From: Bacillus gaemokensis
GTDB taxonomy: Bacteria; Bacillota; Bacilli; Bacillales; Bacillaceae_G
NCBI RefSeq assembly: GCF_001590835.1
Contig: NZ_LTAQ01000005.1
Coordinates: 1,067-65,066, forward strand
DNA: 64,000 nt
Direction of reading: 5' to 3'
The notes under the pieces were generated by a model that had not been told where the DNA came from, ran no database searches, and saw only the letters and a program-made list of their open reading frames with translations. Positions 15,680-30,798 of this stretch are shown piece after piece (position 1 is the stretch's first letter; each line of letters begins with the position of its first letter). Position numbers and translations under genes: made by a program.

Positions 15680-16573
15680 TTATCCCTCAAAGAAATAGCT
15701 TTCTGCTAATTCACGGACAGTCATTTGCTCGGTTTCATCATTTAATTTTGCGATGATGCTTCGCTCAATCGCACGCATAACAGGGATGTATACGCCTAAG
15801 TCACATGCATCAATAATACCACGAATACTTGCTGCTTCTTCACTTACACGGCCATCACGTGCAAGTGGCATTAGGTCACTTGCAAATGCAACAAACTTTT
15901 CAATTGTTGCAACGTCTTTTAACTTGGATTCAGAGAGTAATAACTCTTTTAATGTATCACCTTGTATATAAGGAACTTCAATAATAACAAAGCGGTTTTT
16001 TAATGCTTCATTTAGTTCGCTAGTCCCAACGTAACCTTCATTAATCGCAGCGATTACACGGTATTCTTCATCACCATATACAACTTGTTGTGTAAATGGG
16101 TTTGTAATCATTTTACGATAATCTAGTGCACCGTGAAGGAGAGGGAGTGTTTCAGGCTTTGCCATATTGATTTCATCGATATATAGAAAATGGCCATTTT
16201 TCATTGCTTTCATAAGAGGACCATCAACGAAGGAAACTTCAGACGCACCGTCGTTTGTTTTTAAAGTATTGTATCCTAGAATACCTTCAACATCTAAATC
16301 AACTGAACAGTTAATGCTGTGCATAGGTTTTTGGAATAAGGAAGATAGCGTTTCTGCAAGAACGGTCTTTCCGCTTCCAGTTGGTCCTTTTAATAGAATG
16401 TTTTTGCCGAGCAGAAGTGCTGTAATTGCATCTTCAATAATGCTATTATCTGATGCCTTATACATCTTTGTTCCGATTAAATGTGAATCTTCACGAGCTG
16501 TTTGTTTATTTTTATCATGAATTGTTGCAAGTTGCTGTTTTAAATCAGCATGTATATGAAATTGTTCTAACAT
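15680..16573 (-). CDS. yojN: MoxR-family AAA+ ATPase, YojN / NorQ-like
   Basis: A 297-residue AAA+ protein. Walker A is GPTGSGKT in LLKGPTGSGKTVLAETLSS; Walker B is FLYIDEINMA, followed by the sensor and arginine-finger regions (VIAAINEGYVG, LNEALKNRFVIIEVPY). First gene of a two-gene operon with the VWA protein. Together they probably form a ring-plus-adaptor remodelling machine; the target is not encoded here. Confidence 0.88.
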   Translation of the reverse strand: MLEQFHIHADLKQQLATIHDKNKQTAREDSHLIGTKMYKASDNSIIEDAITALLLGKNILLKGPTGSGKTVLAETLSSLFQKPMHSINCSVDLDVEGILGYNTLKTNDGASEVSFVDGPLMKAMKNGHFLYIDEINMAKPETLPLLHGALDYRKMITNPFTQQVVYGDEEYRVIAAINEGYVGTSELNEALKNRFVIIEVPYIQGDTLKELLLSESKLKDVATIEKFVAFASDLMPLARDGRVSEEAASIRGIIDACDLGVYIPVMRAIERSIIAKLNDETEQMTVRELAESYFFEG

Positions 16574-16686
16574 CTATTTCCCACCTAACATTATTTTCAT
16601 AAAGTAAAACAATACATCTTATGATAACTTGTTTTAATATGGTATGCAAAGAAAAGGAGAGGGGGGAGAAGCATGGCATGATAAAA

Positions 16687-16724
16687 GAAAAGAGTAATCA
16701 AAGTTGTTTTGATTACTCTTTAGA
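16687..16724 (-). terminator. Terminator of cls
   Basis: AAAGAGTAATCAAA / TTTGATTACTCTTT stem close to the cls stop codon, followed by TTTTCTTTT on the minus strand. Confidence 0.85.
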
Positions 16725-16727
16725 AAG

Positions 16728-18257
16728 TTACAGCAAAGGTGAAATGAGTCGCATAAGAGATTCGAGTATCCGCTTTCGAATACTTCGCTTTTGAAAGGAG
16801 TCCCATCTGATTTCTATGGAATCTTTAAAATCTTTCTCGAAATCACGCTTTATATCTAAAACCGTTTTCGATTCATATAGCACTGCAATGAGTTCATAAT
16901 TAAGCTCAAAGCTACGAATATCCATATTTGCTGTTCCAATTGTTGCAATTTCATCATCAACAAGTACAATTTTGGCGTGCATAAATCCATCTTTATAATA
17001 GTAAATTGATGCGCCTGCTTTTAACAGTGGTGTAAAGTAGGATTGAGACGCTTGGTCACTAATAATACTGTCACTTTTTCCAGGATATAGAATGCGAACA
17101 TCAATTCCAGCGGTTGCACTTAAACGTAGTAATGTTAATGTTTCTTGATCTGGTATGAAGTATGGCGTTGCAATCCAAATTGATTTTTTTGCAGAGCCCA
17201 TAACCGCTAATAAGGTATTACGGATACTTGTATCATCTGAACTTGGCCCACTTGCGACGACTTGAACGGCACCTTCTGCTTGGTGGATCCCTTGTCCAGG
17301 AAAATATGCTCTGTTCATAAATGAATCCCAAGAATAGGTATTTAAACCACTAGAAGCATAGAGCCAATCTTCTAGAAAAACTGCTTGCAGTTTATATAAT
17401 GCTTTTCCTTCTATTTTTAAATGACTATCGCGCCAAATAGGAAACTTTTTCGAACGGCCAAGATATTCATCTCCAACGTTGAGTCCGCCTGTAAAACCAA
17501 TTATTCCATCTACAATAACAATCTTACGATGGTTACGATAATTCATTGTTTCAAGTAGCCATGGTGAAAGAATAGAGTCAAATTCTAAGATTTCAATCCC
17601 CGCTTCTTTCATAGGACGTAAGAAGCGATTTCGCAATGTGTTGCTTCCAAGACCATCATACAGAAAACGTACAGTTACACCATCTTTTGCTTTTTTGATT
17701 AATATATCTCTAATTTTAGTCCCGATTTCATCTGATCGATAAATATAGTATTGAATATGAATATGGTGTTTAGCATTTTCAAGAGACTTTATAATCTCAT
17801 TAAAAGTTTCATCTCCATTTGTTAAGAGAGTTGGTGTTGTTTCATTTGCGACAGGTCCGGCGCCAAATTTTTGTATCGCTTTCGTTAAATAGATAGATCG
17901 TTCACTTAATGAAGACGGAGGGCTCACGTCTAAACGCTTATTCTCTAAAATTTCACGGAATAACTTTCTTTGCTCTTCTGATCGATGCAAATGCTTCTTT
18001 CTTCTCCAGCGACTTCGTCCAAAAAGTGAATACAAGAATACACCAATAACAGGAAGAAGCGCTAATACTAAAAACCATGCAAGTGTACTTTGTGGAGAAC
18101 GGTTTTCGATAAAAATAACGAAGGAAATCCCTATGATTGTAATAGACCAGATTACACCAATAAAGGTATATAAAGATATGACTTCTTTATTTAAGAGCAT
18201 AAGAACAATTGCTACAATTGTAAATACAAATAGTAATTGAACAACACGGTTTTTCAT
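16728..18257 (-). CDS. cls: Cardiolipin synthase
   Basis: A 509-residue phospholipase D superfamily enzyme that condenses two phosphatidylglycerols into cardiolipin plus glycerol. Two N-terminal membrane segments (about residues 5-60) are followed by two HKD motifs: HRKIVIVD beginning at H243 with GGLN downstream, and HAKIVLVD beginning at H427 with GTANMD downstream. Full length for the family. Monocistronic; divergent from the His-rich gene. Several Cls paralogues exist in B. cereus group genomes, so the exact paralogue is not assigned. Confidence 0.93.
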   Translation of the reverse strand: MKNRVVQLLFVFTIVAIVLMLLNKEVISLYTFIGVIWSITIIGISFVIFIENRSPQSTLAWFLVLALLPVIGVFLYSLFGRSRWRRKKHLHRSEEQRKLFREILENKRLDVSPPSSLSERSIYLTKAIQKFGAGPVANETTPTLLTNGDETFNEIIKSLENAKHHIHIQYYIYRSDEIGTKIRDILIKKAKDGVTVRFLYDGLGSNTLRNRFLRPMKEAGIEILEFDSILSPWLLETMNYRNHRKIVIVDGIIGFTGGLNVGDEYLGRSKKFPIWRDSHLKIEGKALYKLQAVFLEDWLYASSGLNTYSWDSFMNRAYFPGQGIHQAEGAVQVVASGPSSDDTSIRNTLLAVMGSAKKSIWIATPYFIPDQETLTLLRLSATAGIDVRILYPGKSDSIISDQASQSYFTPLLKAGASIYYYKDGFMHAKIVLVDDEIATIGTANMDIRSFELNYELIAVLYESKTVLDIKRDFEKDFKDSIEIRWDSFQKRSIRKRILESLMRLISPLL

Positions 18258-18405
18258 ATGTATAAATTCACCTATTCTTTCTTATATATGTTTTATTATA
18301 AAACGTTTTACTTTTTTTACAAAAATATAGACATTTTGCCCATGCCTTCCGCCTTTGTCCTGCGTATGGTAATAAATAATCAGTAAAAAAGGAGATGGAA
18401 ATAAA

Positions 18406-18771
18406 ATGTATGATATAAGAAATCACGGCGGATATCACCACAATCATCACGGCGGACACCATCACAATCATCATGGCGGACACCATCACAATCATCATGG
18501 CGGACACCATCACAATCATCATGGCGGACACCATCACAATCATCATGGCGGACATCACCACCACCACGGACATCATCATGGTGGCGGATGGGGCTGGGGA
18601 GGAGGATCATTTTTCCCTGGTAGCTTTGCTGGTGGTTTGGTGGGAGGACTTACAGCAGGAGCATTAACGAGTGGTGGGGCCTATCCAGCACCATATCTGG
18701 TAGCCTATCCAGCGCCATACCCGGTGACTTATCCAGCGCAATATCCTTATTCTTTATATGAAGGGTATTAA
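18406..18771 (+). CDS. Histidine-rich tandem-repeat protein
   Basis: A 121-residue protein of unknown function. Residues about 7-65 are made of tandem HHNHHGGH units (24 bp each, five NHHGG copies) giving roughly 33 His; then a Gly/Trp stretch, a hydrophobic Gly-rich segment (FAGGLVGGLTAGALTSGG) and a C-terminal YPAPY / YPAQY repeat. RBS AAGGAG precedes ATG 18406. The composition suggests binding of divalent metal ions, and the YPAP tail resembles spore-coat or surface proteins, but no known domain is recognised. CGTATGGTA at 18363 resembles a sigma-K -10 element, but no matching -35 is seen. Confidence 0.75.
   Translation: MYDIRNHGGYHHNHHGGHHHNHHGGHHHNHHGGHHHNHHGGHHHNHHGGHHHHHGHHHGGGWGWGGGSFFPGSFAGGLVGGLTAGALTSGGAYPAPYLVAYPAPYPVTYPAQYPYSLYEGY
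18438..18552 (+). repeat. 24-bp coding tandem repeat
   Basis: Units with core CATGGCGGACACCATCACAA are nearly identical in DNA, not just in protein (the first unit carries CAC in place of CAT). That indicates recent expansion. The number of copies may vary between strains. Confidence 0.85.
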
Positions 18772-19028
18772 TGAGGGATAATACTGCACATCAAAATGTA
18801 ATGAAAAGAAAAATCATAGATGTGGAGGAGGATCCCCCACTGATTAAAGTTTTACTTTATGCTATTATGTGTGTATTGTAATATTTTTATATAAATAGAA
18901 AAACCAACTTTACTTTCAAAGTATGAAGAAAAATAAATAATAGGAAAATACTAATAGATGAGAGATTCCCATCATAAGGAAAAGATGCTGTCTTTTTAGT
19001 AAGAGAGATAGACAAGGAGATGAGGCGC

Positions 19029-20732
19029 ATGCAAGAAATGGGAAATCTTATATTATATGATTTCGCATTAAAAGATATAAAGTATGCTTTAGATGAATCA
19101 TCAATTGTTGCTATTACAGATCGATATGGTCGTATTACATATGTAAATGATAAATTTTGTAACATATCTAAATATAAAAAAGAAGAACTAATTGGGGAAG
19201 ATCACCGGATTTTAAATTCAGGTTATCATCCAAAAACTTTTTTTAAGCAGTTATGGAAACAGATTTTAAATGGAAAAGTTTGGCATGGTGAAATTCGAAA
19301 TAGAGCAAAAGATGGAACGTATTATTGGGTGAATACGACAATCGTTCCTTTTCTCGATAAGAATGGAGAACCATATCAATTTATCGCAATTCGTAATGAT
19401 ATTACCAGTCGTAAAGAGATGGAACAGAGACTAAGGATAAGTGAAAATCGTTACCGTGAACTAGCTTACCATGATGCATTGACGAAATTACCAAATCGTT
19501 TGCAATTTAATTTATTGGTAAATAATTCAATAGAAGCGAGAATGAATTTTGGTGTCATTTATTTTGATTTAGATCGTTTTAAATTAGTGAATGATACACT
19601 TGGACATGCAGTTGGTGATTTACTATTAGAGGAAGTAACATTGTGTCTTCAAAATGTAATAGGGGATACAGACGTACTTGCTAGGTTTGGTGGAGACGAA
19701 TTTGTTTTATTAACGCATAAATATAAACAAGATGATTTGAAGCAGCTAGCAAATTCTATTTTGACTAGTTTTCAATCTCCATTTATGTTGGGCGGAAATG
19801 AAGTGTATATTTCATCAAGTTTAGGAATTTGTTCTTATCCAAAAGATGGCCAAGATGTAGATACCGTATTAAAAAATGCGGATTTAGCTATGTACAATGC
19901 AAAGGAACAAGGAAGAAATACCGCTTGTTTTTTTTCAGAGGAGCTACATGCAAAAATAAATCGGCGAATGGAAGTTGAATTTGCGTTACAAAAAGCAATA
20001 CGTGATGAGGACTTAAAAGTTGTATTCCAGCCCATTATTGATTTGAAAACAAAGCAGTGTATAGCGGTAGAGGCCTTGTTACGTTGTTATACAAAAGATG
20101 GTCCAATTTCTCCGGATGAATTTATTCCAATTGCAGAAGAATGCGGACTCATTACACAATTAGGAGATTGGGTATTAGAAAAATCGTGTGAACTTTTCAA
20201 AGAGTTGCCTGCTTATCCAGCGGATTTACGGTTATCTGTAAATGTATCCATTCAACAGTTGATGCAGAAACGTTTTATATTATCGCTCTGTAGTATTTTA
20301 CAACGTACTTCATTTCCCACTCATCGATTGATTTTAGAGGTGACAGAAAGTGTCCCAGTGCGGCACTTTGAATATATTATTGCTGCGTTGCAAGAATTAA
20401 AAAGTATGGGGATTTCTATTGCATTAGATGATTTTGGAACGGGTTACTCTTCATTGTATTATTTAAAGCAGCTACCGCTTGATATTGTGAAAATAGATCG
20501 GAAATTTATTGGGGAGTTTCACTATGAGCACGTACAAGCAGAAAGAACAATTGTAAAATCTATTATTGAAATTGCTCATAGCTTAAATATGAAAGTTGTA
20601 GCAGAGGGAGTAGAAACGGTAGAACAAGAAGCATTACTAAATTCAATGAACTGTGATTATGTGCAAGGATTTTATTATGCGGAACCGTTAACAGTAAACG
20701 ATTTAAAAAAGAAATTAACAAGTGATTTTTAA
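19029..20732 (+). CDS. PAS-GGDEF-EAL cyclic-di-GMP enzyme
   Basis: A 567-residue cytosolic signalling protein with no membrane segment. Order: PAS domain with PAC (about residues 10-135: [33 protein letters not shown]), GGDEF domain (motif intact at 221-225 in ARFGGDEF), EAL domain (EALLR from E348). The EAL catalytic set is present: [33 protein letters not shown] and VQGFYYAEP. No RxxD inhibitory site is seen just before GGDEF. It could make or degrade c-di-GMP; the intact EAL set favours phosphodiesterase activity. ATG 19029 is chosen: it is 9 bases from AAGGAG, whereas ATG 19020 abuts it. Confidence 0.9.
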
Positions 20733-20734
20733 AA

Positions 20735-20859
20735 AAATAATGATAAAAAGCTACCTTTAGATTGGGGTCATTTCGTTAATTGTTATGTTGTTAATGGGAG
20801 GATTATCTCTTGTACTCTTAACTCGAAAAAGAGTATCACATAGAACAACAAAAAAGTAA
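20735..20859 (+). pseudogene. Possible remnant of a sortase-anchored protein tail
   Basis: A 32-codon open frame starting at 20761 has no start codon in place and reads as a hydrophobic stretch (VISLIVMLLMGGLSLVLL) followed by a basic tail (TRKRVSHRTTKK), the typical end of an LPXTG protein. Just upstream, CTACCT could be the LP of a broken LPXTG, but the frame is not continuous. Low certainty; it could also be chance. Confidence 0.3.
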
Positions 20860-20879
20860 TTAATCAGAGAAACAAAAAA

Positions 20880-20926
20880 GGCTGTTAGCGAGCCACCCAG
20901 TGTATTGGGAGGTCGCTGACAGCTTC
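20880..20926 (-). terminator. Terminator of the amino acid antiporter gene
   Basis: Long imperfect stem, AAGCTGTCAGCGACCTCCC pairing with its near complement, followed by a run of T on the minus strand. Confidence 0.8.
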
Positions 20927-20933
20927 TATTATA

Positions 20934-22358
20934 TTAGTTTGCTCTATTATTCGTTTGTTCTGAAACGGAAGGTGATGCGTTTTTCATCAGAATTGGATAG
21001 AGAACGAGTCCTAATACAAATAATCCGATTCCTAAGAAAAATGTTTTTAAATCAGCTGTTCCTGTTTTAATGACCCAAAGGGAATATAGAAGTGCTAGCA
21101 CGGTAATGATTCCATCTTTCATGCGAGATCCTGGCATTACATCATAAGTTTCTCCTGTAATAACAAGTTTTAGTTGGTATAGAGTAGAAACAAGATATGG
21201 AATTAAATAAGCTAATGTTGCAACAACAATGGCAAAATTATATGCTTCTGAAACGGTACCAGAGATTGTTGAAAATAAGAAAATTTGCGTCATAATATTT
21301 GTAACTAGTAATGATTTTGATGGGCTTCCTTTTTTATTTGTTTTCCCAAAAAATTTCGGGAAAAGCCCGTTCTTTGCTGCTTGATAAGGTACTTCTGAAC
21401 TAACGACAATCCACCCTACAGTAGATCCGAACAATGATACAAGTGCAAGGAGCGCCATAATGTAAGCTCCTTTATTACCGATTGCCAGGTTTAAAGCGTC
21501 TACTAATGGTTTTTGAGACTCTTTTAAAGCATCTTGTGGAAGAGCGCCCATTGTTAATAATGTAATTGCCATGTATATAAGAAGAGCAATGATTAACCCA
21601 AAAATTGTTGCTTTTTTCACATCGCGCTGTGACTTTGCACGGTTAGACAGCATAACAGCTGATTCAATTCCTATAAATGCCCAAAGTGTTGCAATGGCAG
21701 CAGCATTGACTTGTCCACCTAACGGAATTGATTTTCCAGCCTCATTCATAAATGTTTGGCCATCACCGAAATTAGAAGCGTTAAAAATAAATAATGTAAT
21801 GACGATGAACATTGTAAATCCGATAATCTTTGCAATTGTTGCAAGGAGATTCATGTTGCCCGCTCTATCGATGTTTTGAGAAAGGATATATTGAATGCCC
21901 CATAACATAATACTGCATACAGCAAATGTTAATCCCTTTCCAAGCTCTAATGAAAACCCGTTTATTGAAAAGAGAACTTGCTTACTTTGTAAAACGGGGA
22001 AAAACGTAGATAAATATCCTGCAAAAGAAATAATAACAGAAGCAGTTGCAGCCCAGTTCGCAGCCCAGTATCCCCATGCCATACTATATCCAGCAACCTT
22101 ACCCATCTTTTGAGAGTGAAACATTGCTTGTGCGTAACTTTGTGGTCCCGCTTTTAACTCTGGTTTACGTATTGCAAGATTTCCAAATACCAGTGCAATC
22201 ATAAATACGCCAAGGCCTGTAATACTCCATGCAAGTGTAGATCCCATCGGTCCTGATACGTGTGCTAAATTTGCTGGAAGCATAAATACACCGCCCCCAA
22301 CCATATTTCCAACAACGAATGCTGTTAAAATCCATAAACCCCATTTTTTCGTTTCCAT
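20934..22358 (-). CDS. APC-family amino acid antiporter/permease (basic amino acid type)
   Basis: A 474-residue membrane protein with about 12 helices. GNMVGGGVFMLPANLAHVSG near the start is the basic amino acid/polyamine antiporter (APA) signature, and WAFIGIESAVMLSNRAKSQR is the conserved TM6 region. ArcD, LysI and histidine/histamine antiporters belong here. Its 5' leader carries an attenuator with four His codons, so histidine (or a His-derived amine) is the best candidate substrate. No decarboxylase or arginine deiminase gene lies beside it. The RBS AAAGGAG precedes ATG 22358. Confidence 0.88.
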   Translation of the reverse strand: METKKWGLWILTAFVVGNMVGGGVFMLPANLAHVSGPMGSTLAWSITGLGVFMIALVFGNLAIRKPELKAGPQSYAQAMFHSQKMGKVAGYSMAWGYWAANWAATASVIISFAGYLSTFFPVLQSKQVLFSINGFSLELGKGLTFAVCSIMLWGIQYILSQNIDRAGNMNLLATIAKIIGFTMFIVITLFIFNASNFGDGQTFMNEAGKSIPLGGQVNAAAIATLWAFIGIESAVMLSNRAKSQRDVKKATIFGLIIALLIYMAITLLTMGALPQDALKESQKPLVDALNLAIGNKGAYIMALLALVSLFGSTVGWIVVSSEVPYQAAKNGLFPKFFGKTNKKGSPSKSLLVTNIMTQIFLFSTISGTVSEAYNFAIVVATLAYLIPYLVSTLYQLKLVITGETYDVMPGSRMKDGIITVLALLYSLWVIKTGTADLKTFFLGIGLFVLGLVLYPILMKNASPSVSEQTNNRAN

Positions 22359-22427
22359 GTTTGTCTATCTCCTTTGTAGTAGTTTTGCTTATTCATCATC
22401 TTTTTACTAGCGTTTTTATAAACAAAA

Positions 22428-22534
22428 AAGAGCCATGTAGATAAAAAATACCTACATGGCTCTTCGCCTAACGTAGGTACAACGGGAATAACCCTTGTAC
22501 CTACGCGTAATTTTTTCCGCTAGGTTTCAAGGGT
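22428..22534 (-). promoter_or_regulatory. Five-segment transcription attenuator
   Basis: Segments on the minus strand. Segment 1 is 22534-22518 (ACCCTTGAAACCTAGCG). Segment 2 is 22505-22491 (CGTAGGTACAAGGGT). Segment 3 is 22486-22472 (CCCGTTGTACCTACG). Segment 4 is 22464-22449 (AAGAGCCATGTAGGTA). Segment 5 is 22440-22428 (CTACATGGCTCTT), followed by TTTT. Possible pairings are 1:2 (8 plus 5 bp), 2:3 (11 bp plus GGG/CCC), 3:4 (7 bp plus inner GGC/GCC) and 4:5 (13 bp or more, a terminator). Each neighbouring pair excludes the next. Segment 1 begins one base after the leader peptide stop codon. Confidence 0.88.
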
Positions 22535-22591
22535 TTACGTATGATGATGATGTTTTTGTGCAAATGTAACTACAGTTGTATAAGTAAGCAT
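22535..22591 (-). CDS. Histidine leader peptide
   Basis: An 18-codon ORF, MLTYTTVVTFAQKHHHHT, with four consecutive CAT codons (14-17) and one codon before the stop. RBS GGGAG lies 9 bases upstream of ATG. It ends next to attenuator segment 1. A likely promoter is TTTCCA-17-TATACT (22656-22651 and 22633-22628, minus strand). The run of His codons makes the ribosome a sensor of charged tRNA-His. I see no T-box features (no specifier loop or T-box sequence). Confidence 0.85.
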   Translation of the reverse strand: MLTYTTVVTFAQKHHHHT

Positions 22592-22807
22592 AGTTCTTTG
22601 CTCCCTTTCTCCTCTGATTTTGAAGCTAGTATACTACATGTTTTTTAGAATGGAAAGAAAAATATAAAAGTTTTTATAAAAATACGGATTATTGACTGAA
22701 TATTTATACATATTTTTCTTGTATTGGAAAATAAGTGAGAGATTGGCAGAGGAATTTTGCATGTTATAATACAAGTAGAATTAGAAGGTGACAAGGGGTT
22801 ATTCAAA

Positions 22808-23518
22808 ATGATGAGTAAGTATGAACAAATCTATACGGAGATAAGTAACTTAATTGATAATCGTAAATTAAAAGAGGGAAGTAAAATTCCATCTGAAACA
22901 GAATTGATGAAGCAGTACGAAGCAAGCCGCGGGACGGTAAGAAAAGCTGTCGATTTATTGCAGGAACGCGGATATGTGCAGAAGATTCATGGTAAAGGTG
23001 TTTTTGTTTTAAAACGAAAAAATATTGAATTTAACTTTGGTGGTATTGTGAGTTTTCAAGAAGAAAATGAACGTTTAGGTCGCCATTGTATAACTGATGT
23101 TGTTGAGATGGAAAATCTTCAAGCGACGAAAGAGATAGCGAAACTATTAAATGTTAAAGTGAAGGCGAAGATTGACCACATTAAGCGTGTGCGAAATATG
23201 GATGGAGAAAATGTAATTTTAGATGTGAATTATTTTGTATCTGAACATATCCCAGGATTAACAAAAGAAATAGCAGAGAAATCGATTTATAAATACATTG
23301 AGAAAGAATTAGGGTTACATATTAGTTATTCACAGCGTGTCATTGAAGTACAGCCATGTACAGAAGATGATCGGAAGTATTTAGATTTAAATGGGACAGA
23401 CTATGTTGTCGTTGTGAAAAACTTTACTCATTTATATGATGGTAGTCAATTTGAATATACGGAATCACGACACCGTTTGGATATTTTTCATTTTTCGGAC
23501 GTGGCACGGAGAAAGTAA
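22808..23518 (+). CDS. treR: Trehalose operon repressor TreR (GntR/HutC family)
   Basis: A 236-residue regulator. Its winged helix is at residues 1-75 (KLKEGSKIPSETELMKQYEA, SRGTVRKAVDLLQERGYVQK), followed by a UTRA effector domain (NVKVKAKIDHIKRVRNMDGE, YIEKELGLHISYSQRVIEVQ). TreR binds trehalose-6-phosphate and releases the tre operators. The start is ATG 22808 behind AAGGGG; ORF extensions further upstream lack an RBS. It is placed directly before treP-treA, with two palindromic operators in the following intergenic region. Confidence 0.9.
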   Translation: MMSKYEQIYTEISNLIDNRKLKEGSKIPSETELMKQYEASRGTVRKAVDLLQERGYVQKIHGKGVFVLKRKNIEFNFGGIVSFQEENERLGRHCITDVVEMENLQATKEIAKLLNVKVKAKIDHIKRVRNMDGENVILDVNYFVSEHIPGLTKEIAEKSIYKYIEKELGLHISYSQRVIEVQPCTEDDRKYLDLNGTDYVVVVKNFTHLYDGSQFEYTESRHRLDIFHFSDVARRK

Positions 23519-23586
23519 AGAGATGAAACGATATATTGTTTCATCTCTTTTTGTATATTTCGAGAACAAATAAAAAAAGTTCACCA

Positions 23587-23652
23587 ACTCATATATACGA
23601 GTGTTGACTAACTTATATATACGAGTTAATATGTAATTGTAAACGGTATCAA
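23587..23652 (+). promoter_or_regulatory. tre promoter with two TreR operators and a cre
   Basis: Palindromes ACTCATATATACGAGT (23587-23602) and AACTTATATATACGAGTT (23610-23627) flank and fill a promoter TTGACT (23604-23609), 17 bp, TAATAT (23627-23632). The cre TGTAAACGGTATCA lies at 23638-23651. Repressor bound at either palindrome would block the polymerase; CcpA would act as a roadblock just downstream. Confidence 0.85.
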
Positions 23653-23674
23653 AAAAAGAAAAGAGGGACGGAAT

Positions 23675-25096
23675 ATGGGGAAGGATTATCATAAGACGGC
23701 GGAAGAAGTGCTGCAATATATCGGTGGTAAAGAGAATATTGAACAAGCAGCGCACTGTGTAACAAGACTTCGCATTGCGCTGAAGGACGAAAGCAAAATA
23801 GATAACGATAAATTACAAGCGATTTCATTAGTGAAGGGAGCCTTTCATAACTCTGGTGTATTTCAAATCGTTATTGGTCCAGGAGATGTGGATCGTGTAT
23901 ACGCTGAGTTGATAACGCTTGCAGGTATGAAAGAATCAACAGTTGCAGATGTAAAGGATTCAGGGAATCAAAAATTGAATCCGCTTCAAAAGTTCGTAAA
24001 AGTATTTTCTGATGTATTTATGCCAATTTTACCGGCGATTATAACAGCTGGTTTATTGATGGGGATTAATAACCTGCTAGGTGCAAAGGACTTATTTTTT
24101 GATGGGAAAAATTTATTAGAAGTATATCCGAATTTAGGTGGACTTTGGGATTTAATTAATATGATGGCGAATACAGCATTTGTATTCTTGCCAGCGCTTG
24201 TCGGATGGTCAGCGACGAAACGGTTTGGTGGTAGTCCAATACTTGGGATTGTTATGGGATTAATGCTTGTACACCCTGATTTATTAAATGCTTGGAATTA
24301 TGGGAAAGCAGCGGCAGGGCTTGATGGACAAAAAATCGAGTACTTTAATATTTTAGGATTGTTCCAAATCGAAAAAGTAGGATATCAAGGACAGATTTTA
24401 CCGATTTTAGTTGCGGCATTTGTACTAAGTAAAATTGAGATTTTCTTAAAAAAACGTGTACCAAATGCGATTCAATTATTAGTTGTTCCAATTACAACAA
24501 TTGTTGTCACTGGTGTGTTAGCGTTAGGCATCATTGGTCCAGTTACGCGTCATATTGGAGATTTATTAACAGCTGGATTAGTTGGTGTATATGAAACAGT
24601 TCCTGCATTAGGTGCATTGTTATTTGGAGCATTATATGCGCCGCTCGTAATTACGGGTATGCATCATATGTTTATTGCAATCGACTTACAATTAATCGCG
24701 CAAAATGGTGGTACATTTATTTGGCCAATGATTGCACTTTCTAACATTGCACAAGGTAGTGCAGCACTAGCGATGTTTTGGATTTCCAAAAATCAAAACG
24801 ATAAAAGCATGGCATCAACATCAGCGATTTCAGCGTACTTCGGTATTACGGAGCCCGCAATGTTTGGTGTGAATTTACGAAATAAATTTCCGTTTTATGC
24901 AGCGATTGCAGGTTCGGCGCTGGCAGCAGTGTTTATTACATTAAATGGTGTATTAGCACCAGCAATCGGGATCGGTGGATTACCAGCATTTATTTCTATC
25001 ATTCCGAAATCGATTCCAATGTTTGTTATTGGGATGATTATTGCAATCGTTGTTCCATTTGTTTTAACATGGTTATTTGCAAAACGAGCAAAATAG
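23675..25096 (+). CDS. treP: PTS trehalose-specific EIIBC component
   Basis: A 473-residue phosphotransferase permease. The EIIB domain is at residues 1-90, with the phosphorylated Cys28 in AAHCVTRLRIAL. The EIIC membrane domain follows (FMPILPAIITAGLLMGINNL, ITGMHHMFIAIDLQLI, TEPAMFGVNLR). It imports trehalose as trehalose-6-phosphate. There is no fused EIIA, so phosphate must come from another EIIA (usually EIIA-Glc). Followed after 19 bases by treA. Confidence 0.94.
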   Translation: MGKDYHKTAEEVLQYIGGKENIEQAAHCVTRLRIALKDESKIDNDKLQAISLVKGAFHNSGVFQIVIGPGDVDRVYAELITLAGMKESTVADVKDSGNQKLNPLQKFVKVFSDVFMPILPAIITAGLLMGINNLLGAKDLFFDGKNLLEVYPNLGGLWDLINMMANTAFVFLPALVGWSATKRFGGSPILGIVMGLMLVHPDLLNAWNYGKAAAGLDGQKIEYFNILGLFQIEKVGYQGQILPILVAAFVLSKIEIFLKKRVPNAIQLLVVPITTIVVTGVLALGIIGPVTRHIGDLLTAGLVGVYETVPALGALLFGALYAPLVITGMHHMFIAIDLQLIAQNGGTFIWPMIALSNIAQGSAALAMFWISKNQNDKSMASTSAISAYFGITEPAMFGVNLRNKFPFYAAIAGSALAAVFITLNGVLAPAIGIGGLPAFISIIPKSIPMFVIGMIIAIVVPFVLTWLFAKRAK

Positions 25097-25115
25097 AAGT
25101 AGGAGGAAGTTTGGC

Positions 25116-26777
25116 ATGAAAGATTGGCATAAAAGTGTTGTCTATCAAATTTATCCGAAAAGCTTTAATAGCTTTTATAACACAGAAACTGGTGACATAA
25201 AAGGGATCACAGAGAAACTAGATTATTTAAAAGAACTCGGAGTAGATTATATTTGGTTAACGCCGGTATATCAATCACCGCAAAATGATAATGGCTACGA
25301 TGTGAGTGATTACTATGCGATAGATCCTTCTTATGGAACGATGGAAGAATTTGAAGAACTGTTAACAGAGGCTAAAAAACGCGGGATTGATATTATGCTT
25401 GATATTGTTGTAAATCATAGTTCAACGGAGCATAAGTGGTTTAAAGAATCCCGGCAAGATAAAAATAGTCCGTATCGTGATTATTATATTTGGCGTGATG
25501 AAAAAAATAATTGGCAATCTAAATTTGGTGGTTCTGCTTGGGAGTATGATGAAGAAACAGGACAATACTACTTGCATTTATTTGATAAAACACAAGCTGA
25601 TTTAAATTGGGAAAATGAATTTCTTCGTCAAGAAGTATATGACATGATGCGCTTTTGGCTCGATAAAGGGGTAACAGGATTTCGACTCGATGTGATTAAC
25701 TTAATTTCAAAAGATCAGCGTTTTTTAGATGATGAAGGAAGCTTAGCTACAAGTGATGGACGTAAATATTATACAGATGGACCACGTGTTCATGAATATT
25801 TACAAGAGATGAATCAAAATGTCTTTGAAGGAAAAGATGTAATTACAGTTGGAGAAATGTCATCTACAACAATTGATAATTGTATTAAGTATTCGAATCC
25901 AAAGCGTAAGGAATTAAGTATGACATTTAGTTTCCATCATTTAAAAGTAGACTATCCAAATGGAGATAAGTGGACGAAAGCTGATTTTGATTTTATAAAA
26001 TTAAAAGAAATCATGTCAAATTGGCAAATTGAGATGCAAGAGGGCGGGGGCTGGAATGCTTTATTCTGGTGCAATCATGATCAGCCACGCATTGTTTCTC
26101 GTTTTGGTGATGATAAACAGTACCGAAATGAATCTGCTAAAATGCTAGCAACATCGTTGCATATGTTACAAGGTACACCTTACATTTATCAAGGTGAAGA
26201 AATCGGGATGACGAATCCAAAATTTGACGGTATTGAGCTATATCGGGATGTAGAATCTTTAAATATTTATAAAATGAAGCAAGGAGAAGGGATGTCAAAC
26301 GAAGAAATCATTGGTATCCTACAGCAGAAATCTCGTGATAATTCGCGTACTCCTATGCAGTGGAATGCAGAAGAGAATGCTGGTTTTACAACAAGCACAC
26401 CTTGGATATCAGCTGCAGATAATTATAAAAATATTAATGTGGAACAAGCATTACAAGATAAAGGATCTGTGTTTTATCACTATAAAATGCTAATTGATCT
26501 TAGAAAGAAATATGATGTAATTACAGAAGGGAAATATGAAGTTATAGATATGAATCATCCGAATATTTGGGTGTATACTCGTACATTGGATAATGAAGTG
26601 TTACTTGTTTTAAGCAATTTTTATGGGGAAACAATCACATATTCTGTACCAGATGAGGTTCAGGTAAATGGCATGAAGCAAGAAATATTGTTATCAAATT
26701 ATGAGGATTCAGATAGAGATATTAGAAATCTTGTATTGAAGCCGTATGAATCCATTGTGTATCGATTTACTAATTAA
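25116..26777 (+). CDS. treA: Phospho-alpha-(1,1)-glucosidase (trehalose-6-phosphate hydrolase)
   Basis: A 553-residue GH13 enzyme that splits trehalose-6-phosphate to glucose and glucose-6-phosphate in the cytosol. Conserved regions: LDIVVNHSS (region I), GFRLDVINLIS (region II, nucleophile Asp), TVGEMSS (region III, acid/base Glu) and WCNHDQPR (region IV). The start is ATG 25116 behind AGGAGGAA; an earlier TTG overlaps treP and is rejected. Last gene of the tre operon. Confidence 0.95.
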   Translation: MKDWHKSVVYQIYPKSFNSFYNTETGDIKGITEKLDYLKELGVDYIWLTPVYQSPQNDNGYDVSDYYAIDPSYGTMEEFEELLTEAKKRGIDIMLDIVVNHSSTEHKWFKESRQDKNSPYRDYYIWRDEKNNWQSKFGGSAWEYDEETGQYYLHLFDKTQADLNWENEFLRQEVYDMMRFWLDKGVTGFRLDVINLISKDQRFLDDEGSLATSDGRKYYTDGPRVHEYLQEMNQNVFEGKDVITVGEMSSTTIDNCIKYSNPKRKELSMTFSFHHLKVDYPNGDKWTKADFDFIKLKEIMSNWQIEMQEGGGWNALFWCNHDQPRIVSRFGDDKQYRNESAKMLATSLHMLQGTPYIYQGEEIGMTNPKFDGIELYRDVESLNIYKMKQGEGMSNEEIIGILQQKSRDNSRTPMQWNAEENAGFTTSTPWISAADNYKNINVEQALQDKGSVFYHYKMLIDLRKKYDVITEGKYEVIDMNHPNIWVYTRTLDNEVLLVLSNFYGETITYSVPDEVQVNGMKQEILLSNYEDSDRDIRNLVLKPYESIVYRFTN

Positions 26778-26781
26778 TTGG

Positions 26782-26820
26782 AATAAGAGGTTGTATGCTG
26801 TGGGTATATAACCTCTTATT
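26782..26820. terminator. Terminator between treA and the germination remnant
   Basis: AATAAGAGGTT / AACCTCTTATT stem, 11 bp, placed between convergent genes. Confidence 0.75.
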
Positions 26821-27936
26821 AATTTAAAACACCGCTATATAACATCTTTACTTCTACTTCAGGAGTAAACTTTACTTTTGGGTAATCTTTCTTCCAGTTC
26901 TTTTTCTTCCACAAATCCGGGTGATAAGCAATCAGATGTCTCCCAACACCAAAAGCATCGCAATTCGCTTTTTGAAGAGTTTTAATAATTTTCTTTGATT
27001 CTTTTGTAAGTTGCTGGGATAATTGCTTGTTTAATTTTTTCCGTTCTTTTGCTTTATGTAACTGATCTTTCGGATATTCGACGACAATGACCCGTAAATG
27101 AAGTTTGATGTTTACATGAACATCTCCGCTTTTGTCGGTTGTTATTTTTAAGTTTCTTCTTACTTTTCGATTACTTACTTCAACGGTCACATAATCAGAT
27201 GGTTTGGCTGAATCTTCTCCTGATAATTTCTGGGTTATACGACCGCTTGGGCCCATTTTCTCGGATAGCGATACGAAGAGCGCTGACTGTTCAGGAGGTA
27301 AAAGACCTGTTAATCGATCATTGTGAAATAACGCTATTCCATTTGTTATAATTTCTTTTCCTTTAATTTTTATGGAAGGAAGTGTAAAGTCTTCACCAGG
27401 GTCTACCATTTTTCGGAATACGGTTTCTAAGGTTTCTTTCGGGAAAACACTCATGTCTTCTAAACTTTGTACTTTTTTCTTTAAAAACTCACCTATTAAC
27501 AAATTCCCTATCTTTTTTTCTCAAGAATTTTAGAGGCACTTCCATCTACTGAAATGAGTTTTACAAGTGCAGTTGGATTACCTGGATCACGGAAACTGAC
27601 ATCTAGGTGTGGAAATATCCCCTTTTTTTCAAGCGGTTTTCCCATTAACTGTACTCCATATTTGAAATAACGAATATTTCCTGTTACGTCTTTTCTTAGC
27701 GAATCACTCGTATCTCGCGCTGTATGACCAGTCGCCGAGTGAATTTCATTTATAACAGAGGACTGTTCTCCGCCAGAACTTCTTACAAGCTCAACTGTTT
27801 GTTTGAGTCGATTTTTATTAGAAAGGTCATAGCCAATACTATAAGCTAAACGAGCATCTCTCAGTGGTTCTTGGTCCCAGCATCCTGAAAGGAGTAGGAG
27901 CGAGCATACAATGATACATAGTTTTCTTTTTAGCAC
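26819..27936 (-). pseudogene. GerAC-family germination lipoprotein, frameshifted
   Basis: Spore germination receptor C subunit in two pieces. The first (27936-27508) has a lipoprotein signal CSLLLLSGCWDQEPLRDARL and the family N-terminus, ending in KILEKKR. The second (27502-26819) continues as GNLLIGEFLKKK and carries the C-terminal domain (CDAFGVGRHLIAYHPDLWKK). The break is a run of seven A on the coding strand (27513-27519): adding one A gives KILEKK-IGNLLIGEF in one frame. A one-base homopolymer loss is the simplest cause; a sequencing error is an alternative. The A gene of the operon is absent and the B gene is truncated, which favours real decay. Confidence 0.85.
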
Positions 27937-28663
27937 GATTCTCCACCTTTCTTATTCCACAGTATGGCGTAAAGTAGAAATAATAGAGGAAGAATGACAA
28001 TGAAAATATACGTGATATGATCTGTGAAATTCGCAATAACTTCTAGCTCTTCAGGTATGTCAAAAAAACATGCGATGCTAAAAGAAATAAGACCTACAAT
28101 GGGAACAGCTTTCTGGTGTTTATCTAGTTTGAAAATATGGCCAATTCCGGTTGAAGATGCACAGAAGTAACTGGCAATAGAAACCACAACAGTTGTCATC
28201 CACATAGGAATAAAAATTAGGTCAGCGCGGTCTACGATGCCGATGTGAAGAGATCTTAGTAAATATACGACTGGTTCAGGTATCAGTTCAACTTGCTTTG
28301 GGCTAAAGACGATAAAACAGATCCATACTGTAAAAGTATAAAATAACGTCACAAATCCATTGGCAATTGAAATTGCTTTTAGCCTTGCTGCCGGACTTCC
28401 TTGTACAAATGGATAGGCAATGAGTATAATTTCGAACCCGTACATCACAGTTATCGTTTCTTTAGCTCCCCGAACGATATTCCACCAACCCGCTTCTATA
28501 ATCGGAAAAATATATGAAAACTCAGCACGGGTAAGACCGAGACCAATTAAAAAAGCTAAAGGAATAATAAGGATCGATGCCATAACGTAAAATCGTACAA
28601 TGACTTTGAATGTATTGTAGGCTAAAAATGAACAAGCGACCGTAAATAAAATGAGAATGGCAG
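27930..28663 (-). pseudogene. GerAB-family germination permease, N-terminally truncated
   Basis: The C-terminal two thirds of an APC-like germinant permease. The frame stays open from a TGA near 28663 through ILILFTVACSFLAYNTFKVI and on to a normal end overlapping gerAC. The ORF from ATG 28583 gives 217 residues against about 360 in the family, and the first few helices are missing. Family segments include FIPIIEAGWWNIVRG-like IFPIIEAGWWNIVRG and LIFIPMWMTTVVVS. The gerAA partner is not present upstream, so a deletion ending near 28663 removed gerAA and the start of gerAB. Confidence 0.85.
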
Positions 28664-28965
28664 ATCAAGGAGTTTCTTGCTTTGAATTTAGAGATAAAAT
28701 TACAAGCGAATTACATCTATACTAGATTAACGATATTAATATATATCTTTTGGACTATGGAGAGTAAGTCCAATGGTATTTATAATTACATCATTTGATG
28801 AATAGAAAATTTAAGAAGGTAGATTTATACTAATATTGTGTCTTGCCTGTTTAGGCGTAGTACACAGCCGGTGATTGGCTAGTGGAAGTTCTTCCATTTT
28901 GCCAGTGCCGGTTTTTTGTTGGATAATAGAGAAAATATATTTTTATAAAGAAAGAAGGGACTGTT
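28664..28965 (+). other. Gene-free stretch with an orphan terminator hairpin
   Basis: About 300 bases without a credible gene. At 28867-28917 a long stem (CCGG...GGC...TGGAA-GTTC-TTCCA...GCC...CCGG) is followed by six T on the plus strand. That is an intrinsic terminator lying 49 bases before the histidine kinase start. It may be a leader terminator of that gene, or the tail of something lost in the germination-operon deletion. Confidence 0.5.
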
Positions 28966-30798
28966 TTGAAAGATGTAGATTCTATTTCTATGAGAGAAAA
29001 AGTTGCTAGTTTTTATCTTTATTTCATTTCTTTTCTTGGTTTGATTACTATAACTATATCTTTACTTGAAATTAAAATCCCTTCTCATCCAACAATACTA
29101 ATATTGTTATTAATATTTATGGGGATTGCAGAGTATTTTCCTGTACGATTTTGGAGAGGAACTAGCTCGCTTACCTTTCCGGTTATTTACGCTATGAGTT
29201 GGCAGTTTGGAATACATATAACTATTATCGCTATTGTATTTGTTACGTTAATTATTCATCTGCTTCGTCGTTCGCCAATACAAAGAATGCTATTTAATAG
29301 TACCCAGCATGCTCTTAGTTTGATCTTGGCAGAATGGTTTTCCAACCAATGTATGTCTTTATTGATTAGCAGAATGGACATGTCAGTTCTGTATGAGAAA
29401 TTAATATTTTTGTTATTGTTTTGTCTGCTTTTTTGTTTTTTCAACAACCGTTTTTACGATTTGTTAATGGTACTTCTTCCTCAGCCGTATTCGATACATC
29501 AATGGTATAAAAAATCTATAACGGTATTTCTTTGTGAAACTTTTGGTTTATTTTACGCTGCTCTTATGCATATCTTAGTTAGTAAATATGGTGTGGAGAT
29601 AAACGAGATTACAGTGTTGTTTTTCTTTTTTCCACTTGTAGCAATTTCAGTTATCAGCTCTTTTTCTGTGCGAATAAGGATGGAGAAGGAACGATTATAC
29701 GAACTGTTTCTTATTACAACAGAAATAAGTCGTGGACTAACTGGAGGAAACTTGAAGCACATAAAACAAGCACTTAAAGGTTTTTTGGGAATACAAGCAT
29801 ATGTAATATGGACAAAAGATGATGGGGATTGGAATCTTCTATTAAAAGATGGGGAAGTGCATTCTGATGTTTCTGATCATTCTGATATATATGAGGCGTT
29901 TGAGGCAATCTCTAAAAATCTTGTTTTTAATGATTGGAAAACTGGTATGGCTCCTGGAGATGAAGTATTTGATAATGTCATACGCTCACTTGTATATTTT
30001 CCTCTTATTATAAATAATGAATTAGTTGGAATGTTTGTTGCAGGAAAAAGTAGAAATGCGGGTTTTTTTCCAGAAGATGTACAGTCCTTAGCTACATTTT
30101 CTAACCAATTAGCTAACGTAGTTAAAACAAGGATACTAATTTCTGAACAGGAAAAAAGAATGATTTTAGAAGAAAGAAATCGAATTGCACGCGAAATTCA
30201 CGATGGTATCGCACAAGCGTTGGCTGGGGTAATATTCCAACTAGAATCAGCTCAGAAAAAATACGGTGATAAACCTATAGATATGCAACAAGTAGTGGAA
30301 AGCAGTATAAGGAAATTAAGGGGAAGTTTAGGAGAAGTTCGCTATTCTATTTATGCTTTAAAGCCATATCCAACACAACAATTAGGACTTAAGCAAGCGA
30401 TAGCAAGTAAGATAAAATCTTTAAAACAAGAATACGAACTAGACATTAGATACCATGAAAGAGGTCATTCTCGTACAATCAGTTTTTCTAAAGAAAGAGT
30501 TATTTTTGATACATTTCAAGAGAGTTTGCAGAACATTGTTAAACATGCACATGCAGAAACAGTTGATGTTTTGTTAAGTTATCAGCGTGAACACGTACTT
30601 TTAAAGGTGAAGGATAATGGAATTGGTTTTTCGCTATTTGAGTCTATGGTTAAAACGAAGTCCGATCCACATTATGGTATATTACATATGAATGAACAAG
30701 CTGAACAGCTAGGGGCTACTTTACAGATTGATAGTTCTGTAGGGAAGGGGACAGAAATTACATTGTTAATTCCAGATTCACAAACAAGGGGTGCGTAA
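28966..30798 (+). CDS. NarL-type sensor histidine kinase with membrane and GAF-like domains
   Basis: A 610-residue kinase. An N-terminal half with about 6-8 membrane helices (residues 10-230) is followed by a GAF-like region (about 245-390), then HisKA_3 with the phospho-His in RIAREIHDGIAQALAGVIFQ and a HATPase domain (ESLQNIVKHAHAE, KVKDNGIGFS, GKGTEITLL). The signal is unknown. The start is TTG 28966 behind AAGAAGGGA; the internal ATG 28990 has no RBS. The response regulator gene begins immediately after the stop. The genes that follow encode a secreted protease and a TasA-like protein, which are possible targets. Confidence 0.88.
   Translation: MKDVDSISMREKVASFYLYFISFLGLITITISLLEIKIPSHPTILILLLIFMGIAEYFPVRFWRGTSSLTFPVIYAMSWQFGIHITIIAIVFVTLIIHLLRRSPIQRMLFNSTQHALSLILAEWFSNQCMSLLISRMDMSVLYEKLIFLLLFCLLFCFFNNRFYDLLMVLLPQPYSIHQWYKKSITVFLCETFGLFYAALMHILVSKYGVEINEITVLFFFFPLVAISVISSFSVRIRMEKERLYELFLITTEISRGLTGGNLKHIKQALKGFLGIQAYVIWTKDDGDWNLLLKDGEVHSDVSDHSDIYEAFEAISKNLVFNDWKTGMAPGDEVFDNVIRSLVYFPLIINNELVGMFVAGKSRNAGFFPEDVQSLATFSNQLANVVKTRILISEQEKRMILEERNRIAREIHDGIAQALAGVIFQLESAQKKYGDKPIDMQQVVESSIRKLRGSLGEVRYSIYALKPYPTQQLGLKQAIASKIKSLKQEYELDIRYHERGHSRTISFSKERVIFDTFQESLQNIVKHAHAETVDVLLSYQREHVLLKVKDNGIGFSLFESMVKTKSDPHYGILHMNEQAEQLGATLQIDSSVGKGTEITLLIPDSQTRGA

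Follow-up and report, generated by a model that had tools for sequence, protein, structure and literature searches.

A predicted histidine leader-peptide attenuator with five competing RNA segments upstream of an APC-family transporter gene in Bacillus gaemokensis

Histidine leaders in bacilli and the locus in the window

In the his and trp leaders of enteric bacteria, pairing segments occur in even number and the genes stay off when the leader is not translated, while T-boxes and riboswitches are common in Firmicutes. Histidine leader peptides in bacilli have been predicted before: Naville and Gautheret (2010) described one upstream of hisS* and hisZ (PMC2965389), and Ashniev et al. (2022) listed candidate his-operon attenuators, with three to five successive His codons directly upstream of hairpins, in six species of the B. 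cereus group where HisR is absent (PMC9413887). The initial annotation of the DNA studied here had assumed that Firmicutes mostly use T-boxes for this task, which needs amending for Bacillales, where PMC9413887 gives HisR, not the T-box, as the main alternative regulator. Its Table 2 names only the his operon, yuiF, and hisR as HisR targets in Bacillales, and its Table 3 has the his operon alone as an attenuator target in that order.

Here we describe a leader of this kind upstream of a transporter gene in a 64-kb stretch of Bacillus gaemokensis DNA (64,000 nucleotides, “the window”). As in enteric his and trp leaders, the position of the ribosome on regulatory codons is predicted to pick terminator or antiterminator, but the window leader has five segments and, like 23 of 30 members of its family, is predicted to be on without translation. 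Like the hisS*/hisZ leaders, also from bacilli, it joins a mini-ORF containing a His run to a terminator-type attenuator, and a hisS* leader from a related genome (G021) is similar to it in DNA; it differs in its target, a transporter, and the relevant section of PMC2965389 gives no five-segment scheme. With the attenuators of PMC9413887 it has in common a His run followed by attenuator, terminator, and antiterminator hairpins, and it departs from Table 3 there in its target. An APC transporter is not named as a target in the text of either paper as far as it was available, the word “antiporter” is absent from the main text of PMC9413887, and a literature search that lay mostly outside subscription journals found no report of an APC transporter as a His-leader target. 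The leucine-rich attenuator peptide of Staphylococcus aureus ilv-leu (PMC5794164), compared by its description, is likewise a case of leader-peptide attenuation in a Firmicute, but it is experimentally supported and concerns another amino acid and other genes. The locus also resembles the HisR (YerC) regulon in the control of histidine supply genes, HisR-like sites lying before most APC orthologues, with the difference that HisR is a DNA-binding repressor and the leader is RNA. What is new here is the transporter target, the wider RNA family, and a five-segment design that is predicted to be on without translation.

Table 1. Features of the leader and its target gene (window coordinates), with candidate HisR sites from other genomes.
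Feature	Position	Strand	Basis
APC-family transporter (PF13520), regulated gene, 474 residues	20934..22358	-	profile matches, similarity
T-rich run behind terminator stem	22421..22428	-	sequence, terminator scan
Segment 5, intrinsic terminator 3′ arm	22429..22443	-	folding, terminator scan, alignment
Segment 4, partner 3 (antiterminator) or 5 (terminator)	22449..22463	-	alignment, folding
Segment 3, partner 2, or 4 as antiterminator	22465..22482	-	alignment, folding
Segment 2, partner 1 or 3	22490..22507	-	stem tests, alignment, folding
Segment 1, partner 2	22518..22534	-	stem and segment-swap tests, folding
Leader peptide ORF, MLTYTTVVTFAQKHHHHT*	22535..22591	-	sequence; ATG 22591, TAA 22535, 18 codons
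CAT x4, four successive His codons	22541..22552	-	sequence
RBS AAGGGAG of leader ORF	22601..22607	-	sequence; 9 nt 5′ of ATG
Predicted promoter TTTCCA-17-TATACT	22628..22656	-	consensus scan only, 9/12 matches
Candidate HisR sites, CACTTTACCAAACTAAA, ATTAGCNNACTAAAG			

The ORF of 18 codons, its good RBS, and the four His codons in a row that the initial annotation had pointed out are all present (Table 1), and the pairings 1:2, 2:3, 3:4, and 4:5 were borne out by folding and shuffles; the single base that it had placed between the stop codon and segment 1 is not there, as segment 1 abuts the stop codon directly. The region 22421-22540 has a folding energy of -51 kcal/mol. Its dinucleotide shuffles (n = 200) averaged -25.8 kcal/mol (SD 3.25; z = -7.8), and none of them folded equally well. 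The claimed strong terminator, 4:5, is the sole terminator-like site in 22350-22800; it lies on the minus strand, aimed at the transporter, about 65 to 70 nt upstream of the gene. The locus thus combines, at the level of sequence, a run of the sensed codon in a short ORF with an intrinsic terminator ahead of the gene. The upstream neighbor is a divergent gene that scores as a trehalose-operon repressor, and because it faces away, the terminator is unlike the end of a preceding gene. The promoter call is weak, with three promoter-like sites in the scanned stretch versus a shuffle mean of 1.9. Runs of at least four His codons occur in two places in the 64-kb window, in the leader ORF and in an ORF at 18553. 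The latter is a 121-residue His/Gly-repeat ORF (HHGGHHHNHHGG..., window 18406-18771, plus strand).

Ribosome position and RNA folding

We folded the leader with the 3′ edge of the ribosome at +13 nt from the first base of the A-site codon, the usual figure for that edge, and with RNA polymerase just past segment 4. In this equilibrium calculation, the window RNA adopted 1:2 and 3:4 with the ribosome at His1, His2, or His3, and 2:3 with the ribosome at His4, Thr, or the stop codon. Varying the edge from +9 to +16 moved only the switch point: His1 and His2 always gave 3:4, and Thr and stop always gave 2:3. The predicted flip between the first His codon and the stop, scored where the expected pairs exceeded two in both stems, was obtained in 24 of the 30 members with a leader peptide, the window included, and was missing in six (L100, L101, L149, L151, L152, and L154). 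The dependence of the fold on ribosome position is thus seen in silico.

Without a ribosome, the window RNA folded mainly into 1:2 and 3:4, as did 23 of the 30 members, and the window leader is accordingly predicted by the model to be on when it is not translated. With an odd number of segments, a leader that is not translated should default to read-through. The 3:4 stem was absent without a ribosome in the other 7 of 30 (L098, L099, L100, L147, L152, L153, and L154), and these exceptions speak against a universal on default. Once segment 5 was present, 4:5 formed at every ribosome position computed for the window; because 4:5 wins as soon as segment 5 exists, read-through depends on the polymerase passing first.

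We infer the following course of events. A ribosome would translate the mini-ORF while RNA polymerase transcribes the leader. When charged tRNA-His is short, the ribosome would wait at the first His codons and leave segment 1 free, so that 1:2 and then 3:4 could form, no terminator would arise, and the transporter would be transcribed. When histidine is plentiful, the ribosome would run on to the last codons of the ORF, where it masks the 5′ half of segment 1; 2:3 would form, segment 4 would pair with segment 5, and transcription would end ahead of the gene. We consider it very probable that the element is a ribosome-sensed transcription attenuator that turns on a probable histidine importer in histidine shortage; histidine starvation is most likely what turns the gene on.

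Relatives of the leader and conservation of its stems

A scan with the transporter gave 52 loci, none of them under a B. cereus-group name. Of the 50 close ones (L001-L050), 2 carry the same leader, with HHHT, before the APC orthologue: L021 (Bacillus sp. 165) and L048 (Ectobacillus panaciterrae), both first spotted through their His run and hence not independent of its conservation. Of the 19 genomes of the family of L021 and L048, 5 gave a match when the window leader was used in a DNA search: these two loci, the leader of a hisS paralogue (L061, the hisS* leader of G021), and, in two genomes, a leader followed by an ORF of ~150 residues (L059 and L060). L061 was reached by this search alone (E = 9e-6, 78 bases), and its segments stand in the order of the window leader.

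From six leaders we derived a covariance model for stems 2:3 and 4:5, which matched 81 of 397 genomes of the order at E 0.01, mostly weakly; rebuilt from ten leaders, the model matched 18 of the 19 family genomes at E 0.01, 1 of the 15 genomes of the family of G221 at 1e-5, and 34 of 398 genomes of the class at 1e-5, where weak matches need not be leaders. Some weak matches of the first model (L081, L085, L095, and L097) turned out to carry His leaders, and the weak matches were therefore not used as a negative control. We examined 37 hits, one per source from 37 of 47 sources, the other 10 being near-duplicates. A His-His mini-ORF lay at the expected place in 32 of the 37, stopping 17 to 29 nt ahead of the modeled hairpins, and none was found in the remaining five (L127, L128, L133, L140, and L150). 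At L150 (~1440-1594), hairpins 2:3 and 4:5 are retained before a hisS-like start identified by eye, but there is no leader ORF and segment 1 has lost its match, which looks like loss of the sensor. No leader match was found in plasmids or phages by distant blastn, nor in viral contigs with one exact pattern. Searched against Rfam, the window and 16 related leader loci gave no match at the gathering score; the covariance models of the T-box (RF00230) and the enteric His_leader (RF00514) did not match the leader, and that of the lysine riboswitch (RF00168) had no match in the window. The best Rfam match at a relaxed threshold was the trpB motif, which at 32.5 bits lies far under its cut-off of 59 and was taken as chance or remote likeness.

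At 8 of the 8 loci tested, hisS stands behind the leader above a curated cut-off, by NCBIfam in L061, L145, L147, L148, L151, L153, and L156 and by Pfam in L100, where it begins only ~590 nt beyond the leader. In L101 the leader precedes hisD, and in L098 and, at 433 nt, L099 it precedes a YuiF-like permease; the interval in L099 (1126-1560, genome G005) is ~330 nt longer than that in L098 (the similar genome G007). Behind the leaders of L136 and L154 lies a hisZ-like gene (163 and 218 bits, under the cut-off of 272) together with hisG above its cut-off and, in L136, hisD above its cut-off. Some leaders stand ahead of genes with no evident link to histidine (L059, L060, and L131): in L059 (1509-1670) and L060 (1480-2112) the ORF of ~150 residues follows, which for L060 had no Pfam or NCBIfam match. 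A HEARO RNA (RF02033) lies in L131 (3517-3763, minus strand) near a second His leader of Ectobacillus panaciterrae.

We tested each stem in 38 members against 300 shuffles of one strand, counting identical rows once and leaving out the four members L127, L128, L133, and L140, which have no His ORF; L150, which has no leader peptide, was kept in the stem tests and alignments and skipped in the folding of members. At most 3 of 300 shuffles paired equally well for 1:2 in 33 of 38 members and for both 2:3 and 4:5 in all 38. Stem 3:4 is individually weak: its pairing was equaled by no more than 3 of 300 shuffles in only 5 of 38 members and by no more than 15 of 300 in 24 of 38.

The alignment comprised 31 of the 47 sources, the same four members, near-duplicates, and L139 being excluded, the last to stay above an opposite-strand match. 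Across these 31 members, 92.5% of the cells of 2:3 and 4:5 pair (slid controls, 31 to 52%), in an alignment that was fitted to these two stems and is biased toward both. Changes on both sides occur in 19 of their 29 pairs, a number reached by 7 of 500 shuffles, and in 121 cells, reached by 0 of 500; many of the 31 rows are closely related, so cells are not independent events. For the seven pairs of 3:4, to which the alignment was not fitted, 214 of 217 cells pair and 29 of 31 members hold the whole helix (the exceptions are L060 and L146), in a table where, post hoc, six hisZ rows were shifted by two columns and gaps after segment 4 were closed. Both-side changes fall in 27 cells and touch four of these seven pairs; of 1000 row shuffles, not one did as well on either count (paired cells, mean 90.5%, best 94.0%; both-side-change cells, mean 8.7, best 17). 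Stem 1:2 keeps its complementarity across diverged leader sequences. When segments were swapped among 13 kinds of leader, segment 1 found its best or tied-best partner in its own segment 2 in only 7 of 13, and in the remaining kinds close kinds compete. The leader thus has an antiterminator, 3:4, that excludes 2:3 and 4:5, with compensatory changes in all three. Distant relatives keep both the His run and the alternative stems. This conservation, together with the folding at different ribosome positions, argues for the element as a leader-peptide attenuator and for the polarity that was preferred at the outset, i.e., starvation for histidine as the on state.

The transporter, HisR-like sites of its orthologues, and competing readings

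The transporter resembles arginine/agmatine and arginine/ornithine antiporters and falls below the cut-off of every NCBIfam model that it matched. We examined six related APC loci, with transporters 52 to 59% identical to that of the window, and five of them (L062, L064, L065, L066, and L067) carry lysine riboswitches; the sister transporters seem to be sorted by the amino acid that their leader senses. In a midpoint-rooted tree, 49 rows including the window were set against 7 rows, made up of the five lysine-type loci and both Alicyclobacillus rows; the tree gives no answer as to whether the leader-bearing APC genes are one clade.

The promoters of most APC orthologues in other lineages carry a palindrome, usually CACTTTACCAAACTAAA. 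Its core, TTTA-N6-TAAA, was present in 43 of 50 APC upstream regions versus 159 of 2500 shuffles. The copy in L021 lies just after the terminator stem of the leader, has 8 of 14 consensus letters, and was taken as chance. With a HisR-like matrix built on seven sites upstream of hisZ, which had been chosen by eye and whose genomes are also among the 50 APC loci although at another gene, 44 of the 50 upstream regions scored above the 95th and 29 above the 99th shuffle percentile, the 50 orthologues being related and thus not 50 independent cases. Near-full matches were found in Priestia (24.1 bits) and Alicyclobacillus pomorum (28.6 bits). Among the lysine-type control regions, one of four (L065) exceeded the 99th percentile, and the two Alicyclobacillus transporters with HisR-like sites sit on the lysine-riboswitch side of the tree.

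The matrix revealed no full HisR-like site in the 500 nt scanned at each of the three leader-bearing genes (window, L021, and L048), a distance chosen since a 300-nt scan missed the leader promoter in L048. L021 has at 2739-2749 the sequence ACTTTACCAAA, 11 bases of the usual operator of the orthologues, which overlaps the likely leader promoter; a likeness of this length arose in 4 of 1000 shuffles, and it is possibly the relic of a HisR site. We sought HisR as TIGR02531 (yecD_yerC), equated with HisR on the authority of PMC9413887, and found its gene in 11 of 29 genomes, including all eight tested genomes that have an APC orthologue with a site (G003, G004, G122, G191, G255, G403, G404, and G405). 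It was not found in G001, G002, G005, G007, and G021, the genomes of the highest-scoring leaders; the genomes of the leader-bearing APC orthologues L021 and L048 lack it. HisR and the leader coexist in G011, G221, and G057, and the two are not mutually exclusive at the genome level. At hisZ of G002, G005, G007, and G021, no leader and no HisR-like site turned up within 350 nt.

Allowing at most one mismatch, the published HisR consensus gave no APC or hisZ sites in six genomes; it matched instead at lysC-like genes, identified by eye. The palindromes CACTTTA-N6-TAAAGTG upstream of aspartokinase-like genes (by eye) in L173, L174, and L179 (0, 0, and 1 mismatch) are closer to this consensus than are the hisZ sites in those genomes. 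Between the HisR-like site and the APC start, L005 (2855-2926, HHHRYHHHSC) and L009 (2842-2916, HHHQNHHHSC) have another His-rich leader ORF, unlike that of the window, with no terminator seen. It is a possible second, independent histidine leader; translational control there was unsupported by folding against shuffles.

The HisR-like sites bear on the substrate, which the initial annotation had left as histidine or histamine. If the gene encoded a histidine/histamine exchanger for decarboxylation or acid resistance, the weak likeness to the histidine-histamine antiporter models TIGR04298 and NF040512 (206 and 182 bits) would fit, but these scores are far below the respective cut-offs of 725 and 750 bits, the orthologues' sites resemble those of his operons, as befits a supply gene, and no decarboxylase was found by eye among the frames of at least 80 amino acids in 16000-29000. 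Because the orthologues have HisR-like sites and the protein lies so far below the antiporter cut-offs, we prefer histidine to histamine as the substrate, and the exchanger appears very unlikely. The lysine riboswitches at related APC loci might suggest that a tRNA-His T-box or a riboswitch governs the gene, which is scarcely credible given that neither the window nor the leaders of the 16 related loci matched any Rfam family at gathering score.

Two further readings accept the hairpins and give them another role. The same attenuator might work with opposite polarity, a stalled ribosome masking segment 1 and thereby favoring the terminator, so that starvation would turn the gene off; indeed, at the last His codon the footprint covers the 5′ half of segment 1, and 2:3 forms for edges of at least +12. 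A starved ribosome would, however, wait first at His1, where segment 1 was free for every footprint tried, the same 24 of 30 members fold to starvation as the on state, and the family precedes hisS, hisD, and a hisZ-like-hisG-hisD set, which should rise in starvation; we regard the opposite polarity as very unlikely. A constitutive attenuator or processing element with an accidental His run is highly improbable, too: folding does put the terminator conformer at the energy minimum, as such an element would have it, but His mini-ORFs recur in diverged leaders (the 32 of 37 hits) and ahead of several histidine genes. We therefore retain the ribosome-sensed attenuator that is on in histidine starvation. 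Judged from sequence comparisons, histidine uptake is the likeliest function of the transporter, which would most likely supply histidine, controlled by HisR in most lineages and by the attenuator in the present case.

With modest confidence, we lean toward a broader picture in which one homologous five-segment His leader, reading through by default without translation, has come to stand in front of no fewer than five kinds of histidine gene (APC, hisS, hisD, yuiF-like, and the his operon) across three or more families of Bacilli; at the APC gene it would replace the HisR operator of other lineages, a repressor swapped for an RNA switch, and an 11-base half-operator may persist at the leader promoter of L021. 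PMC9413887 names YuiF and the HisXYZ ABC system as histidine transporters, and the APC transporter is likely a third kind in the histidine regulon of Bacillaceae. The RNA family of the leader gave no Rfam match at the gathering score in these searches, and the on state predicted for the leader without its start codon reverses the textbook enteric behavior. The locus may offer a natural case in which orthologous genes seem to have swapped a repressor protein for ribosome-sensed attenuation.
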